From Plectrocnemia conspersa (Eukaryota; Arthropoda; Insecta; Trichoptera; Polycentropodidae): a DNA stretch of 64,000 bases. Positions 49,870-57,704 of this stretch are shown one piece after another; the first letter of the stretch is position 1; every line of letters starts with the position of its first letter. The position numbers and the translations under genes were made by a program. The notes beneath the pieces are model-generated. The model made no database searches and was not told the DNA's origin. It saw only the letters and a list, made by a program, of their open reading frames with translations. The DNA lies in assembly GCA_009617715.1 (NCBI GenBank), contig VTFK01000526.1, positions 62,001 through 126,000 of the forward strand, written 5' to 3'.

Positions 49870-50240
49870 TTGGGTTCAGAGACTTCATTTCAGCTTTTTT
49901 TCAGGAGAGGCAAAAGTTGGCCAGTCAGTGGTTGTTTTTTTAATATTTCCATTTCATTAAATGACATGTATTTTTCTGGCCAAATTCAAGTGTGTCCCTG
50001 CTTAGTCCATGTCAAAAGCAATAAAATCATGCCGTCGCTCATATTAAGACTTTTTATAACAATATTACGACTTACACTAAGTGAGAATTCAAATGAAGCG
50101 TATCTAAACCGAATTTGGATCAATAGAAGTGCAAAAAAATTATCGCTTCTCAGAAGTCAAAAACCCACATCAAAAGCAATAAAATCGTGCCTTCTACATC
50201 ACGATTTTATTGCTTTTGACTTCTGAGAAGTGATAATTGC
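49870..50240 (+). repeat. R2 repeat copy plus inverted TCAAAAGCAATAAAA motif
   Basis: CAGTGGTTGTTTTTTTAATA, ATGACATGTATTTTTCTGG and CCAAATTCAAG match R2 copy 61430-61800. It is followed by TCAAAAGCAATAAAATC twice direct and once inverted. The last pair (50171-50187 and 50202-50219) makes a hairpin around a 14-base loop. Confidence 0.55.
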
Positions 50241-50605
50241 AAAAATGAAATGTCATACTTTGCCTTTTGAATGTGCCTACTGTAACAAATATGGTACGGT
50301 TGATTCATAGCAACTCATTCATAATTTATTTTTTTCCATATTTTTTAGATGAGATTCAGACCTCCTTAATCCCATTAATAATAAAAAGTTATGAAATTCT
50401 GATAAAATTAGTTTTAGGTCTAAATGGATTAATTTATTTAGAATTAATTGTAAGGTGATTTGTAGCTAATAAGCAAATACTTACATATTAAGCTTTGTAT
50501 TTGTTCTGGGCTAGCGAATGGTTTGTCTATAATGTCTCAACGCTTAACGGGATAATAAAATTGAATGTAAAAGGTTAACAATATATTTACAATTTTTATA
50601 CAATA

Positions 50606-53600
50606 CTACACATCCCTCGCTCTCTCGGCTAAAGCTTCCGAGTACTGCTCGGGCGTCAACAGCTGGCCCTTCTTGGCGTCGCTCTCGGCTATCCGGGCCA
50701 GGACGACGGCGACGTAGCCGTCCGAGTCCGGATAGTCTATCAGCAACGACGGGTTGGATGCGAGCGCCTCGTTGATCTCGACGAGCTTCCCCTCAATGCA
50801 GCTTGACACCTTGTACTCTCTTCCGCTTTCAGTGACTATCTTGCAGAGCACCGAGTTCTCTTCTAAAGTCTGACCTCCACGTTTGCCTTTCCCCTTGACT
50901 ACGTTCTTTGTCCTGTCTGCTCGGTCGGTCTGAAAGTCCACTTCGAAGACTTCGTTCTCGGAGAAGAGCGGATGACTGGGAGCCAACGTCACCAGGCATA
51001 TTCGGTTGGAGTGAAACAACAGCATGTGGTCGTTGCCGGCGGCGTTCTTGACGTCCAAGCAATAGCGGCGAGAGAAGTATCTATCGGTGACTGACCTGTA
51101 TTTAGGAATATATTCATAAAATTATTTATGTTATATCGTATTAGTAATTCTATGGATGTGAGGCGATGACTTTGAGCGTCGGCCGTTTCAGATTCGGGGG
51201 GCAGTTCTTTTATATCTGCGTTTTATACAATCATTCCTCGATTATGCAATAACATTCTTGTAACCAGTCGATTCAAGATTTATGATTAAACCTTTGACTG
51301 CGGAAGACACCTATAAAAAATCATAGACTTTTGAACATTATATCGCAATTGTTTCATATATTTTAGGGTTGAAAATTCCTTTAACGGAATATTAAAATCT
51401 TTAACTAACGACATCTCTTGATGTTTGCTTAAAAACATTTGTAGATATATTAGAATTAAATATTTTTCAAAAAAATATTGGTGTTTCCAATTCTCGCCAC
51501 CCAGGTGCTGCCATCGATTTATCATAGAATTGTATGACGTAGGTTTCACGTTCAGTCTGCCGTCAGGACTGACAACAGACTGATCGTGTAATACAGGGCT
51601 TCTTAAACTATGGGTGCGACCCCAAATGGGGTCGCGAAATTTTATTGTTAATAATAATTTAAATACATGAATTTAAATTAAATGTTTTAAATCATATTTT
51701 CAAGCTGCTCATTATGATCATATAACTTTTACTCACTGACTTATTCAGCAAATGCAGCAAAAAAACTAGAACCAGAATTGAACGATGTGCTGTTCGTTCA
51801 GGATGCTGTTAAGATTATACATTTTATTAAGAGCCATGCCCTTAACAGCCGTCTATTTTCAAATCTCTGTAAGGATACGGATTCCCACTATACAAATTTA
51901 TTATTACATGCAGAAGTAAGATGGATATCAAAAAGTCAAAGTTTAAAAAGATTATTGTTATTTAAGGATGAAATCGAAATATTTTTAACCGAACAAAAAT
52001 GTGATCTTGCGGCTTTTTTTCAAAATGACCTATGGCTATCAAAGCTGCGTTATCTGTCAGATATTTTTGAGAAATTAAACGATCTCAACTTGTCTCTTCA
52101 AAGAAACAATTGCGATATATTTACTTGAAATGAAACAATTGAAAGTTTTATTAAAAAGATCAACATTTGGAAAAGTAGGGTAGAAAAGGATTCGTTGGAA
52201 ATGTTTTCCAGTATCGACAATTTATAATCGAGAAAAATCATTGTAAAACTTTTATCGCAAAAATTATTATAGTTCACTTAAAAGCGCTAGAAACACAGTT
52301 TCGTAAATATTTTATATCAAATATTGATTTAAAAAAGTTATCTTGGATTCAAAAACCATTTTTTATTGGCTTGAGTGAGATTCATCACCTGCCATATAAA
52401 GCTTAAGAGGAATTTGCTGAGCTTTCGAGTGACTCAAACTTAAAACTAAATTTTTCAAAAAAGCCCTTGACTAAATTCTGGATCGGAACTAGAACTGAAT
52501 TTCCCACAATTTTTGATATGGCATTAAGTGTTCTTCTGCCATTCAACACCATGTATTTATATGAAATTACTTTTTCAGCTTTAACACATATTAAATCCCA
52601 ATATCGTTCATCGTTAGAAAGTTTTACGTCCAGCAGTGTCAAATATTGAACTAAAATTTAATTTGTTATGCAGTAAAAAACAAGCACATCCGTCTCATTA
52701 AAAAACGATTTTCCCTTTAATTTTTGTGTACTTTTAATATATACAAGCGACGATATATTTTGCTCAATATTCTTTTTTATTTATGTTATTGCAAAAAATG
52801 CAGTTGTGATGAAAAATAAGGCATATAATTTTTGTAACTATAATAAATACAATTTTACAACTTTTTGCGCAATTTTTTATTTTAGTATGTTTCTAAGCAA
52901 ATTCTAAAACTATATTTTTTCATATGTATGTAATATGTATATTGTTACATAATCAATAAATCAGCACAAAATATTTATATATCTTTATTTTATATTTATC
53001 TGGGGTCACGAAGAAACTCACAATCATAAATGGGGTCGTGAATGAAAAAAGTTTAAGAAGCCCTGGTGTAATACATTCCATCAGTGTGATCTTTCAGTCA
53101 CCGCTCGGACAGCGATGGAGGTATGCGCCGCCAACTACGAAGCCATTTGAGGCAGAGAAAGATTTTTTATTCACATTAGAATCATTGCTATTCTCTGGGA
53201 TAAAACCCATAAGAATTATGTAAATAAGTATTATATGACAGAAATAAAGCTTTGGAAAGGTTGTTAATAATCTATAAAAAAAATTAAACCTCTGGCCACC
53301 ATCGACGATATTAAAAAAATAAACACATTAAGACCAAATTAGCGCGGAGAATTAAAAAAAAATAACGTCTCGAAGATCAGGGGCTAGGGCAGATGATGTT
53401 TATACTCCGAAGAGTTGGAACTTTGAATATCTAAGTATGTTATTTTCAAATAAAAACGCTTAAAATATTTAATGCATTTATTAAAACGAATACAACGTAA
53501 CCTAATAAATGAATACAGTTAAATATTTATTATTAATTCATGCCAATATCCAATATACCCTCGTTATTGAAATAGCGACAAAATTTTTCTCTTATCGTTT

Positions 53601-54366
53601 TTTCATCATTTGGTGCTAATGGGCTCCAAATCAAGTAATTCATTTCCATATTGTTTTGTGATTTTCCAATTCGATGCCAAATAAAGCCATGGTTGGGTTT
53701 TAACCAAATAATTATGTAAATAACAGCAATATTTTTTTCCGCGGAAAACATCCATCAGTCCGCTATCAGTATTTTAACCTACGTATGGCAGACGTTTTTT
53801 ACAATTTACACCGAATGTTCAAAACATAATCCAACTTTTATGAATTGAAAAGAACTTTAGTTATAAATCGACAAGTTCATTATCTTTTACGAAGTCACAG
53901 GATAAGTTTATGTAAAAAGAACTCAATTCTTAATTCATTAAAAACAGTGCCGTGCACGAATGTTGTATGTCAATGACACCTAGTGAATTTTTTACTAATT
54001 CATTGGTGCTAGTTAATTATGTCGGCACTATAAAAATTGTTCTGTATTTTGCTACATAATACATTTTAAAATGAAAAACTTGGTTTGTTATCGATAACAC
54101 ACGACAGTTTTAAATTTTAAAACGGTGTTGGCTACAGATGTTTCTGAGAGTGATAAAAGAACGGTTTTTGTCATTGTCCTTTTTATGAAGTTGATGATTA
54201 CGTAGTTAGGAAATTTGTGATAATTATTTTGAATAAGCGAAAAAGGGTTGATTTTTTGCAACATAAAACCTTAACCATGGATTAAAACTTTATAAACATT
54301 TAAAGAAGTATACCTATAGTCCGAGTCGATCGGCGCCGATTCTAAGATGGAAGGCACTGCGTCCAT
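50606..54366 (-). CDS. ABITRAM: ABITRAM (FAM206A/Simiate) homologue
   Basis: Two exons, 54366-54314 and 51095-50606 (phase 2 across Arg), give 180 residues, matching the family length of about 181. Exon 1 encodes MDAVPSILESAPIDSDYR. Exon 2 reads SVTDRYFSRRYCLDVK, HMLLFHSNRICLVTLAPSHP, a short basic loop KGKGKRGGQTL, SVLCKIVTESGREYKVSSCI, GKLVEINEAL and DGYVAVVLARI, all characteristic of ABITRAM, a glycine-cleavage-H-like fold protein reported to bind actin in neurons and modulate transcription. Its ATG lies five bases after the CMC2 stop, within the same exon, and is followed 53 nt later by a splice donor. It therefore most likely rides on the CMC2 transcript. The 3.2-kb intron carries an hAT insertion. 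Confidence 0.93.
51594..53065 (+). mobile_element. hAT element with intact TIRs and 8-bp TSD
   Basis: The terminal inverted repeats are CAGGGCTTCTTAAACT and its complement at the right end; subterminal GGGGTCGCG/GGGGTCGTG motifs also mirror. The host duplication GTGTAATA is perfect at 51586-51593 and 53066-53073. Inside, plus-strand frames read LLLHAEVRWISKSQSLKRLL, LSDIFEKLNDLNLSLQ, and, near the end, YLYEITFSALTHIKSQYRS, the C-terminal block of ZBED5/FAM200-like hAT transposases. The N-terminal half is deleted and several stops occur. It is an internally deleted, inactive copy in the ABITRAM intron. Confidence 0.9.
53074..54313. other. ABITRAM intron remainder
   Basis: AT-rich intron sequence upstream of the hAT insertion. 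A minus-strand open frame at 53751-53533 (containing HGFIWHRIGKSQNNMEMN) has protein-like composition but no recognised domain and no splice support. Confidence 0.35.
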
Positions 54367-54371
54367 CTCGC

Positions 54372-54688
54372 CTAAACCTCCTGCGTCCTCGTACTGTTGA
54401 GAATACGCGCCTGGCGCTCCCTGGCGAGACGGTGGTTCTCTTGGCGTTTGTCTTCTCTCTCTTTCTTCGTACAGTTGAGCATCTGCTGGTGAATCTCGGA
54501 GCACATGCCGAATATCAACCCTATCTTGTGCTGCGACCGAAAGCGAACTTACGACATCTTGCCAGCCTCGATACCTTTATGTACCTCGGTACAGATATAA
54601 CGCTCACCTCTTCGTAGCAATCGGTCAGTTTTTTAATGATGATATTGCACTCATCCGTGTGCAGGTTAGGAGCCAAATTCTGGTGCAT
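54372..54688 (-). CDS. CMC2: COX assembly mitochondrial protein 2 (CMC2)
   Basis: Two exons, 54688-54608 and 54530-54372 (phase 0), give 79 residues, exactly the usual CMC2 length. It begins MHQNLAPNLHTDE and carries twin C-x9-C motifs: CNIIIKKLTDC in exon 1 and CSEIHQQMLNC in exon 2, joined by HKIGLIFGM. A basic tail (KKEREDKRQENHRLARERQ) follows. Twin C-x9-C proteins are oxidised in the intermembrane space by the Mia40 relay; CMC2 takes part in cytochrome c oxidase biogenesis. The TAG stop is followed by GCGAG and then the ABITRAM ATG. The minus-strand intron is only 77 bp. No poly(A) signal can fit between the two frames. Confidence 0.95.
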
Positions 54689-54889
54689 TGTCAAACTTTG
54701 CGGCCGAAACGCGACGATCGTCGGCCAGTTCGGTTTACGTAATATGTAAAATTTTCCTATTTCATTTATTTTGCATAATTAAATGCCAAATAATAATGTT
54801 ATTCAATATATTATTCATTTCACCTTATTAAAATTTAAGTCTTTGGCTAAATTAACAGGAATTTCATAAAATATATGTATACACCCAAG

Positions 54890-54990
54890 AACATCGGTTG
54901 GGCAAGAGGGCAGGGGGGGCATTTGTACTCCTTTGAAAAATTCATGTCATTTATTGAGATACTACGAGTATTATTTAAATCGAAATATTG
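54890..54990 (-). repeat. R2 repeat fragment, minus orientation
   Basis: GGGGGGGCATTTGTACTCC then TTTGAAAAATTCATGTCATT is the reverse complement of the CCCCC-ended tail of the R2 copy at 61430-61800. It lies about 200 bp upstream of the CMC2 start. Confidence 0.45.
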
Positions 54991-55239
54991 ATCAAATTTT
55001 AAACGCTGGTGCAGATGTGCCATGAACTGCATTCAACTCGGCTTTCGGTGTTTTGTTTTGCAAATGAAAATCGTTTTTCCATTGATCGAAAATAACGAAG
55101 GTTGTTTGCTTTAATTCATCGTAAAAATGAAAGGATGCAATGCAAACGACAGACAACTTGACAGTAGTCTATTGACAGATGGTACTTTTCAGAAACAAAC
55201 TTGTTTCGATATTACTAGTGCCATCTTTTAGTTTTTCTA

Positions 55240-55345
55240 ATGACTTATAGGTATACATTTTTACTAGAGAAAATATTTATCTGGCAGGTGCTAGAATTTT
55301 TTTATTATTGCAACTTTTCCATTCGTAGTAATATATAATTTACAT
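55240..55345 (+). repeat. R2 head fragment
   Basis: ATTTTTACTAGAGAAAATAT, TTATCTGGCAGGTGCTAGAA and TTCCATTCGTAGTAATA match the R2 head near 23745 and 38060. Confidence 0.45.
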
Positions 55346-56427
55346 GCTATTTTCCTAAAGCCTCCCTACAGCTCGATAACGGAAAATCGATTTTTCTCAT
55401 TTCTTACTGAGCCGTAGCAATTAATTTATTCAATTATTTTGTATAATTTCTTTCTTTCTTGGCACTTACGACAATTTGTCAGTATTTCTCTATGATGGCG
55501 AGTGTTGAAATTTAAAAAAATATTAAGGGAGAACATCATTATTATAAAATATTGTACAGAAAGGCAACGCATGACGCTTCTCGTTCCTTGTAGATATTAA
55601 CTAATAGTTCCAAGCAATGTAAAAAAATGAGGTGTAATAACAATTTTCGCCGGAGGGAAACTAATACGTAGAGTTGAATAGAAATCCCTTTAATAATTTA
55701 TTATTCATATATCAATAAAAATGGTGCACATACATTTATATACATTCAATGCGCAAAATAAACATATTTCTTAAAAATAATCAAACAATATACATCTGTA
55801 TACATTTATAATATTATCATTTTACAATAGTATAATAATTATTTAAAAGCGGGATCTTTCTCCGTCGAATCCGGATGAGTGCGCGACCGGACCGGAGCTT
55901 TAGATACGATCTCGGGTCCGACCGAGACTCGGCTGGAACAGATATAAAAACATAACCGCGCGCGTACGAAATTTTTTCGACTAACCAGACTAACAAAATT
56001 ATTAAAAAAAACTAGGCATAAAAAATTATATGATAAACTTTTGGCTGACGATTATACACATAACATAGAATGGAATCGATTAAAAATAAAACGTATCGTA
56101 CGTCAAATAAACGCTAATGTTTGTTCTTCGCGACGATCGTCACAACTCGGGCGATAAACTTTAGGCCCCTAACCCTGCGATGCCAAAACGACGACTAATT
56201 TTTGATATGCCCTTCGAAAGTGCGTCCAAACGACAACTTTGCGACCTTCCGTATTACATTAGCGGCGTTCGTACGCATACGAACGTCGCGGTCCCGTTCT
56301 ACGCGAAGAAACGAACAATACGCAAACTCCCAGAGTCCGACGGGATCTTTACTGCGACGATGCGGACGGACAGATATAAACGATCCGTCCGCTAGTACAA
56401 TATTCGATCGGACGCTCGTCCGGGTCG
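55346..56427. other. Intergenic and syntaxin 3' UTR
   Basis: The part from about 55700 to 56427 is probably the long 3' UTR of the minus-strand syntaxin gene (AATAAA-type signals on the minus strand near 55697-55702). No separate gene is seen; the short plus-strand ORFs at 56180-56438 are not supported. Confidence 0.4.
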
Positions 56428-57704
56428 TTATCTCTTAAGCGACGTGACGATTATGATGGTCAACACGATGCCGGCGACCAGAGCGATAGTGAGGAGGATC
56501 AGCATTTTTCTGCGGAACTTGGCCTGATACCGCGACGCCTTTACCAGCTCCTCCCTACCCGTTTCGACTCTCGCTTCGGCGCCTTCTATGCTGCTCTCGA
56601 TCGTATCTGAAAAGAGATACGAGTTTCGGTAGGGTTGGATCGTACGGCGAGAGCGTCGACTCGGACTCACCTATTGTGGAACCTTGACAGTTGATTATCG
56701 CGCTGAGCTCTTGCATCACTTGGTTGATGTCCAAAACGTTGGATTCTATCTGTCGAACGTACTCTTCCCTCTCTCCCAGCAGTCCGTTGTCGAACTCCAG
56801 CATTTGAGCCTGCCAACGGAGCGTAATCAATATTCGTCTGTTCTGTTGAATTTTTGAAAAAGTCGATCGCTCACCTGCGTCTGTTTTAGAGCTAAAAGCC
56901 TGACGGTGTCGTCGTCTTCCACGTGAGCGTTTCCTTCGGCCGTAAAATCCGTCATCGGCACCTTCGGTGGCATGTATAACTGCATTTTTTCGGATAATTG
57001 CTGAAATGGGTAGTTTTGAATGTTTAGTTTTGCATGTAAATTCAGTTTTAAGCATTTCTTGATTCAAGTGTATTAATAAACTCGAGTGTCTTGAATAATT
57101 TAAACTATTTTCTTTTGCTGAGAAATTTTATTTACATTAAAATAATTTAAGATTCCAAACACTACCTAGTAAATTGTGCAGGGGTTTTTTAAAAAATATC
57201 AATTGGATAAGGATTGATGTCCTTCATAATTTACATTAAGAATATAAAGAAAAAATAACGGACCTTCTGCACTTGCGAGTACCTGACGACGGACTCGCTG
57301 AAATTTTGCGCGAGCTTCTCGAATTGCAACTTCTGCCTCTTGTCGCCCTTCCTGACGATGACTTCGAGGCGACGCAGGTCCCTAGTGGTGGCGCTCACTG
57401 TCGTGTTGACGCTCTGCTGGGTCTCCTGCCTGCGACCGAGACAATTGCAACAATAATTTTCATTCGCAAATCGGCGGGTAGTAATAGTATATTATATTCA
57501 CGCTTGGCTCCGCAGCGCCTCGGTGTCTCTGGGCGAGCCCAGGTGTCGCTCGGTCCTCTCCAGTTGGCGCGAGGCCGCCTGCACGGCCGTCACTCCCGAC
57601 GCAGCCGCCTCCACCAGCGTGTACAGCTCGGTGGGGCTGAAGCCCTCGCCGGAGGGCTGCAGCGGCGAGGGCCCCGGCCCCGCGGTGCCGTAGTTGCGCG
57701 ACAT
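56428..57704 (-). CDS. Syx7: Syntaxin 7/12-type endosomal Qa-SNARE
   Basis: Five exons, 57704-57502, 57429-57264, 57000-56875, 56809-56671 and 56606-56428, all in phase, give 270 residues. The N-terminal part is a helical Habc-type domain (YTLVEAAASGVTAVQAASRQ; DLRRLEVIVRKGDKRQKLQF). The SNARE motif runs from ERE-EYVRQIESNVLDINQV through QELSAIINCQGSTIDTIE to ARVETGREELVKASRYQ, with the zero-layer Gln kept in C-Q-G-S. A basic RRK precedes a single C-terminal membrane anchor (MLILLTIALVAGIVLTIIIV) with a three- to five-residue tail. Family members drive early and late endosome fusion; Drosophila Syx7/Avalanche is the likely relative. ATG 57704 gives MSRNYGTAGPG, typical of this group. Confidence 0.93.

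Follow-up and report, generated by a model that had tools for sequence, protein, structure and literature searches.

Introduction

Dicistronic genes are ordinary in flies, with 159 dicistronic pairs in Drosophila melanogaster and a polycistronic transcript for 2.5% of protein-coding gene models (Crosby 2015). Among the systems closest to the one described here is sloth1/sloth2, in which a 79-residue first frame, encoding an assembly factor of a mitochondrial respiratory complex, is followed after only five nucleotides (GCAAA) by a second frame in another register; the two products are likely paralogues belonging to one complex (PMC9681215). Hayden and Bosco (2008) placed D. melanogaster CG9288 among 44 conserved upstream frames: an 80-residue frame with CX9C motifs precedes a longer main frame on the same transcript, both are under purifying selection (Ka/Ks of 0.16 for the upstream frame and 0.17 for the main frame), the farthest EST found for the upstream frame is from Aedes aegypti, and the main frame carries the label 'Pyruvate kinase', derived from InterPro (PMC2276209). 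In Mocs2, the large and small subunits (CG10238/CG42503) are encoded in a deeply conserved two-frame message.

Here we analyze the junction between CMC2 and ABITRAM in a 64,000-nucleotide stretch of the Plectrocnemia conspersa genome (the window, to which all coordinates refer unless another contig is named). A first-pass annotation of this DNA had proposed that the two genes share one mRNA. Set beside the fly genes, the pair is a further example of a familiar arrangement and is less surprising than that annotation implied.

Arrangement of CMC2 and ABITRAM

Both genes lie on the minus strand. CMC2 begins with a coding exon of 27 codons (54608–54688, ATG at 54688), followed by a 77-bp GT-AG intron (54531–54607) and the coding part of exon 2 (54372–54530), which closes with a TAG at 54374–54372. 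The five nucleotides GCGAG (54367–54371) are all that separates this stop from the ABITRAM ATG at 54366, after which the exon continues through 53 coding nucleotides (54314–54366), encoding VPSILES, to a GT donor at 54313. One exon, 54530–54314, thus carries both the stop of CMC2 and the start of ABITRAM. ABITRAM intron 1 (51096–54313) is 3218 bp long and contains a repeated transposon-like element, and the second ABITRAM coding exon, stop included, occupies 50606–51095. When the coordinates were re-read, the junction proved exact to the base as first annotated, from the CMC2 TAG to the donor; the short intron upstream of it (54607–54531) does measure 77 bp, and the products had the expected lengths of 79 residues for CMC2 and 180 for ABITRAM. 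These are two separate, non-overlapping coding frames for conserved proteins on one strand, as expected of a dicistronic gene in the sense used by FlyBase, and the shared exon makes a processed mRNA with both frames likely.

The likeness to sloth1/sloth2 extends to the 79-residue first frame, the length of the spacer, the frames lying out of register and the nature of the first product as an assembly factor of a mitochondrial respiratory complex (PMC9681215). The two systems differ in the relationship of their products, as the Pfam families matched by CMC2 and by ABITRAM are unrelated, and in the start context of the first frame, which is poorer in sloth1, the CMC2 AUG having an A at -3 (PMC9681215). 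Mocs2 resembles the present locus as a two-frame message but differs in that both of its products are subunits of one enzyme. We know of no link of this one-enzyme type for CMC2 and ABITRAM. In a literature search that left most subscription papers outside its reach, no paper was found that names CMC2 alongside ABITRAM, FAM206A or dicistronic messages.

The element in ABITRAM intron 1 spans 51594–53065 and has perfect terminal inverted repeats of 16 bp (CAGGGCTTCTTAAACT). It is bordered on both sides by TATTACAC, an 8-bp duplication such as hAT transposons make, and in our own reading it is a hAT transposon. When 51600–53090 was searched against the insect's own genome, at least 51 matched stretches were found among the best 40 of 157 candidates (self included), the best of the others being 97% identical; no Pfam match was obtained for any of four frames of the intron. 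Upstream of CMC2 on the same strand lies a gene with a SNARE domain at its end (56431–56670; Pfam, 2.4e-12) and a C-terminal hydrophobic stretch, which by eye is syntaxin-like.

Identity of the two proteins

The CMC2 protein matches PF08583 (Cmc1) at 1.2e-12, above the Pfam cut-off, and its cysteines at positions 14, 24, 37 and 47 make up two CX9C motifs; a search of the PDB with it gave no match. Searched against the insect's own 393-Mb genome, the protein returned two matches among the best-scored candidates, and these are the two CMC2 exons described above. The Pfam Cmc1 profile also found one match in this genome, on contig C454 (L004:1501–1710), and missed the intron-split CMC2 of the window, so that other split genes could escape such a search likewise. 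Read by eye, the C454 match is CMC1, and the idea that the window gene is a stray CMC1 was rejected on this basis. The window gene appears to be CMC2 and not CMC1, as judged by eye against the C454 sequence.

The ABITRAM protein matches PF01597 (GCV_H) at 5.4e-7, likewise above the Pfam cut-off, and a search of the same 393-Mb genome with the protein returned only this locus among the best-scored candidates. Where its homologues carry names from their sources, most are called Abitram or Simiate, with many nameless and one called a glycine cleavage H protein; a protein of Periplaneta americana is 51% identical to the window protein over 98% of the query. We rejected the identification of the window gene as glycine cleavage H protein, since contig C307 carries a GCV_H match that is far stronger (2.2e-31) and presumably is the true glycine cleavage H gene. 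An alignment was built from the window protein and 19 of its 72 homologues. In the PDB it retrieved 11 distinct sequences, every one a glycine cleavage H protein, and in viral contigs 145 stretches fitted a pattern derived from it, none encoding a relative.

This alignment also bears on the start of ABITRAM. The motif I-x-x-S, encoded ahead of the ABITRAM intron, aligns in 10 of the 19 homologues, VPSILES of the window being matched for instance by TPSILDS of homologue P0003, VPSIEDS of the dragonfly Ladona (P0011) and IPPIEES of the mayfly Ephemera (P0016), and is absent from the other nine, which include wasps, an ant and both molluscs. The N-terminus is therefore conserved in part only. Within exon 2, the ABITRAM frame has no ATG ahead of the conserved SVTDRYF, and upstream of this it reads FYEYIPKYR to a stop. 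Taken together, the shared motif and the missing ATG indicate that ABITRAM probably does start in the shared exon, which would then be its true first coding exon, although an alternative first exon elsewhere is possible.

The gene pair in other insects

A deposited hypothetical protein of the mayfly Ephemera danica (P0016, 256 residues) combines a Cmc1 domain at residues 1–57 with a GCV_H domain at 193–251, and its CMC2 part is 42% identical to the window CMC2 over 57 residues. The simplest reading is that the two genes are neighbors and that gene prediction ran past the stop separating them; the gene order is the same in the mayfly either way. As to synteny in other insects, proposed at the outset as a check, the mayfly model shows the CMC2-then-ABITRAM order, but a joint model occurs in just 1 of the 72 ABITRAM homologues, a count to be read in the light of the fact that fused models are barred wherever a true stop codon separates the two frames. 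A joined CMC2 and ABITRAM query scored on its CMC2 part gave no candidate, and a search with residues 1–70 of the mayfly protein returned itself alone out of two candidates, with no further fused model. Since both frames are conserved genes and stand in the same order in the mayfly model, their adjacency is more than chance, and the repeated order suggests that the linkage is old.

One gene list for a 37-kb interval of the fly genome contains both CG42375 and CG9288. We take CG9288 to be the fly ABITRAM and, as a guess, CG42375 to be the fly CMC2 frame. CG42376 was also considered as fly CMC2 and was dropped, as the literature calls it a COA6 orthologue. If CG9288 is indeed the fly ABITRAM, the pair was probably already listed in 2008. 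The CG9288 transcript shares with the present locus a CX9C frame of CMC2 size (80 against 79 residues) upstream of a longer gene, whereas its frames are not named CMC2 or ABITRAM in the portions of that paper available to us (PMC2276209).

One message or two

We consider it likely, from the layout of the DNA, that CMC2 and ABITRAM share one dicistronic mRNA. A single message is favored because the first coding exon of ABITRAM is continuous with the last exon of CMC2, because five nucleotides are too short to hold a separate 3' end and a promoter, as the first-pass annotation had rightly argued, and because the gene order is repeated in the mayfly model and, if CG9288 is the fly ABITRAM, in flies. 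For CMC2 to have an mRNA of its own, the transcript would have to end within ABITRAM intron 1. Past the CMC2 stop a canonical poly(A) signal is first met at 53531, with no AATAAA or ATTAAA before it; the first AATAAA 3' of the ABITRAM stop (50433–50438) begins at 50438, 168 nt below that stop, and by its match to the consensus alone is a candidate shared signal. A separate ABITRAM mRNA would in turn have to start within the 322 bp that separate the two ATGs. Separate mRNAs for either gene are possible, and the sequence points to neither. In the proposed scheme, one promoter upstream of 54688 would give rise to a pre-mRNA covering both genes, splicing would remove introns of 77 and 3218 nt to leave CMC2, the 5-nt spacer and ABITRAM in one mRNA, and the shared 3' end would lie below 50606. 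The initial proposal of a dicistronic mRNA thus holds as the best reading, supported by the continuous exon, the 5-nt gap and the mayfly order, but the mRNA is deduced from genomic DNA and ABITRAM transcription may start inside CMC2.

This last arrangement, in which a private promoter between 54688 and 54366 yields a monocistronic ABITRAM mRNA, would mean that the genes overlap on the DNA while the message need not be shared. We regard it as unlikely, as such a promoter would be confined to, or to the surroundings of, 322 bp that are mostly coding and include the 77-bp intron; a bacterial promoter scan of the locus is uninformative for insect DNA. Far less probable is that alternative splicing sometimes joins the frames to give one CMC2-ABITRAM protein. 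The mayfly model is a single predicted protein with both domains, and once the window message is spliced, no stop interrupts the ABITRAM frame over the 189 nt that precede its ATG (54367–54632, which take in the final 25 nt of exon 1 and the CMC2-coding stretch of exon 2, with no in-frame ATG). Yet the mayfly protein is a hypothetical one whose CMC2 match ends at residue 57, as expected from a predictor skipping a stop, and in the window retention of the 77-nt intron leaves CMC2 out of the ABITRAM frame and meets a stop at 54521.

Translation of the second frame

On a shared mRNA, the cap-proximal AUG would direct translation of CMC2. To make ABITRAM, ribosomes would most likely reach the second frame by scanning past a leaky CMC2 AUG or, as the second choice, by reinitiation coupled to termination; we favor leaky scanning over reinitiation and reinitiation over a private promoter. 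The start contexts are GACAATGC for CMC2, with A at -3 and C at +4, and CGAGATGG for ABITRAM, with G at both positions. The CMC2 context is moderate and not clearly weak, which fits modest leakiness without proving it. Since it is fairly good, and better than the ACACATG of sloth1 (PMC9681215), the case for leaky scanning is weakened, and given a shared mRNA we assign this mode a chance of about one half. Apart from the CMC2 start, three AUGs precede that of ABITRAM in the spliced message extended by 60 nt before the CMC2 start; all three fall after the CMC2 start, two of them in its frame, and the third begins a frame of 9 codons. We detected no depletion of out-of-frame AUGs beyond chance in this interval, with one observed against 0.98 expected and 75% of codon-resampled versions having one or fewer.

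Reinitiation after CMC2 termination is the main competitor on the same mRNA, although we consider it rather unlikely. The ABITRAM start is only 5 nt past the CMC2 stop, and with A at -3 of the CMC2 AUG most ribosomes should begin there; Hayden and Bosco also raise the possibility that reinitiation is more efficient in insect cells (PMC2276209). Against this, the CMC2 frame is 79 codons long, and reinitiation in plants and mammals drops with longer upstream frames, sharply so above 34 codons in plant protoplasts, in work that used viral components, a caution voiced by the same authors (PMC2276209). Reporters of sloth1/sloth2, with the same geometry, favored leaky scanning (PMC9681215). We find it very improbable that ABITRAM is translated through internal ribosome entry close to the junction, even though IRES use may be common in fly dicistronic pairs (Crosby 2015). 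The junction RNA (54314–54530) is not unusually stable (z of -0.43, with 63 of 200 shuffles folding as well or better), and Rfam at its gathering threshold gave no match over 50000–57200, results that leave room for an unstructured or undescribed IRES.

Leaky scanning is the mode that we prefer, and one feature of CMC2 may help to sustain it. The second residue of the protein is a His here and in the mayfly model alike; a His codon dictates C at +4, so that the first AUG would stay somewhat leaky. It is a tentative suggestion that the dicistron is as old as the winged insects, spanning mayflies, flies and this insect, and that it has been kept because the CMC2 AUG meters ABITRAM output. Functional co-regulation of the two genes, at which the first-pass annotation hinted, finds no support in our analysis.

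Implications

What is new here is a further insect with the pair, together with a mayfly gene model in which the two are fused, CMC2 again coming first. If the two genes do share a message, the set of insect dicistrons conserved between orders would gain a pair whose members are unrelated, and with a first frame of 79 codons and a 5-nt gap this pair would offer a compact natural test of leaky scanning against reinitiation. RNAi against ABITRAM/Simiate has been done in water striders; in any insect species whose pair shares a message, such treatment would deplete CMC2 as well.
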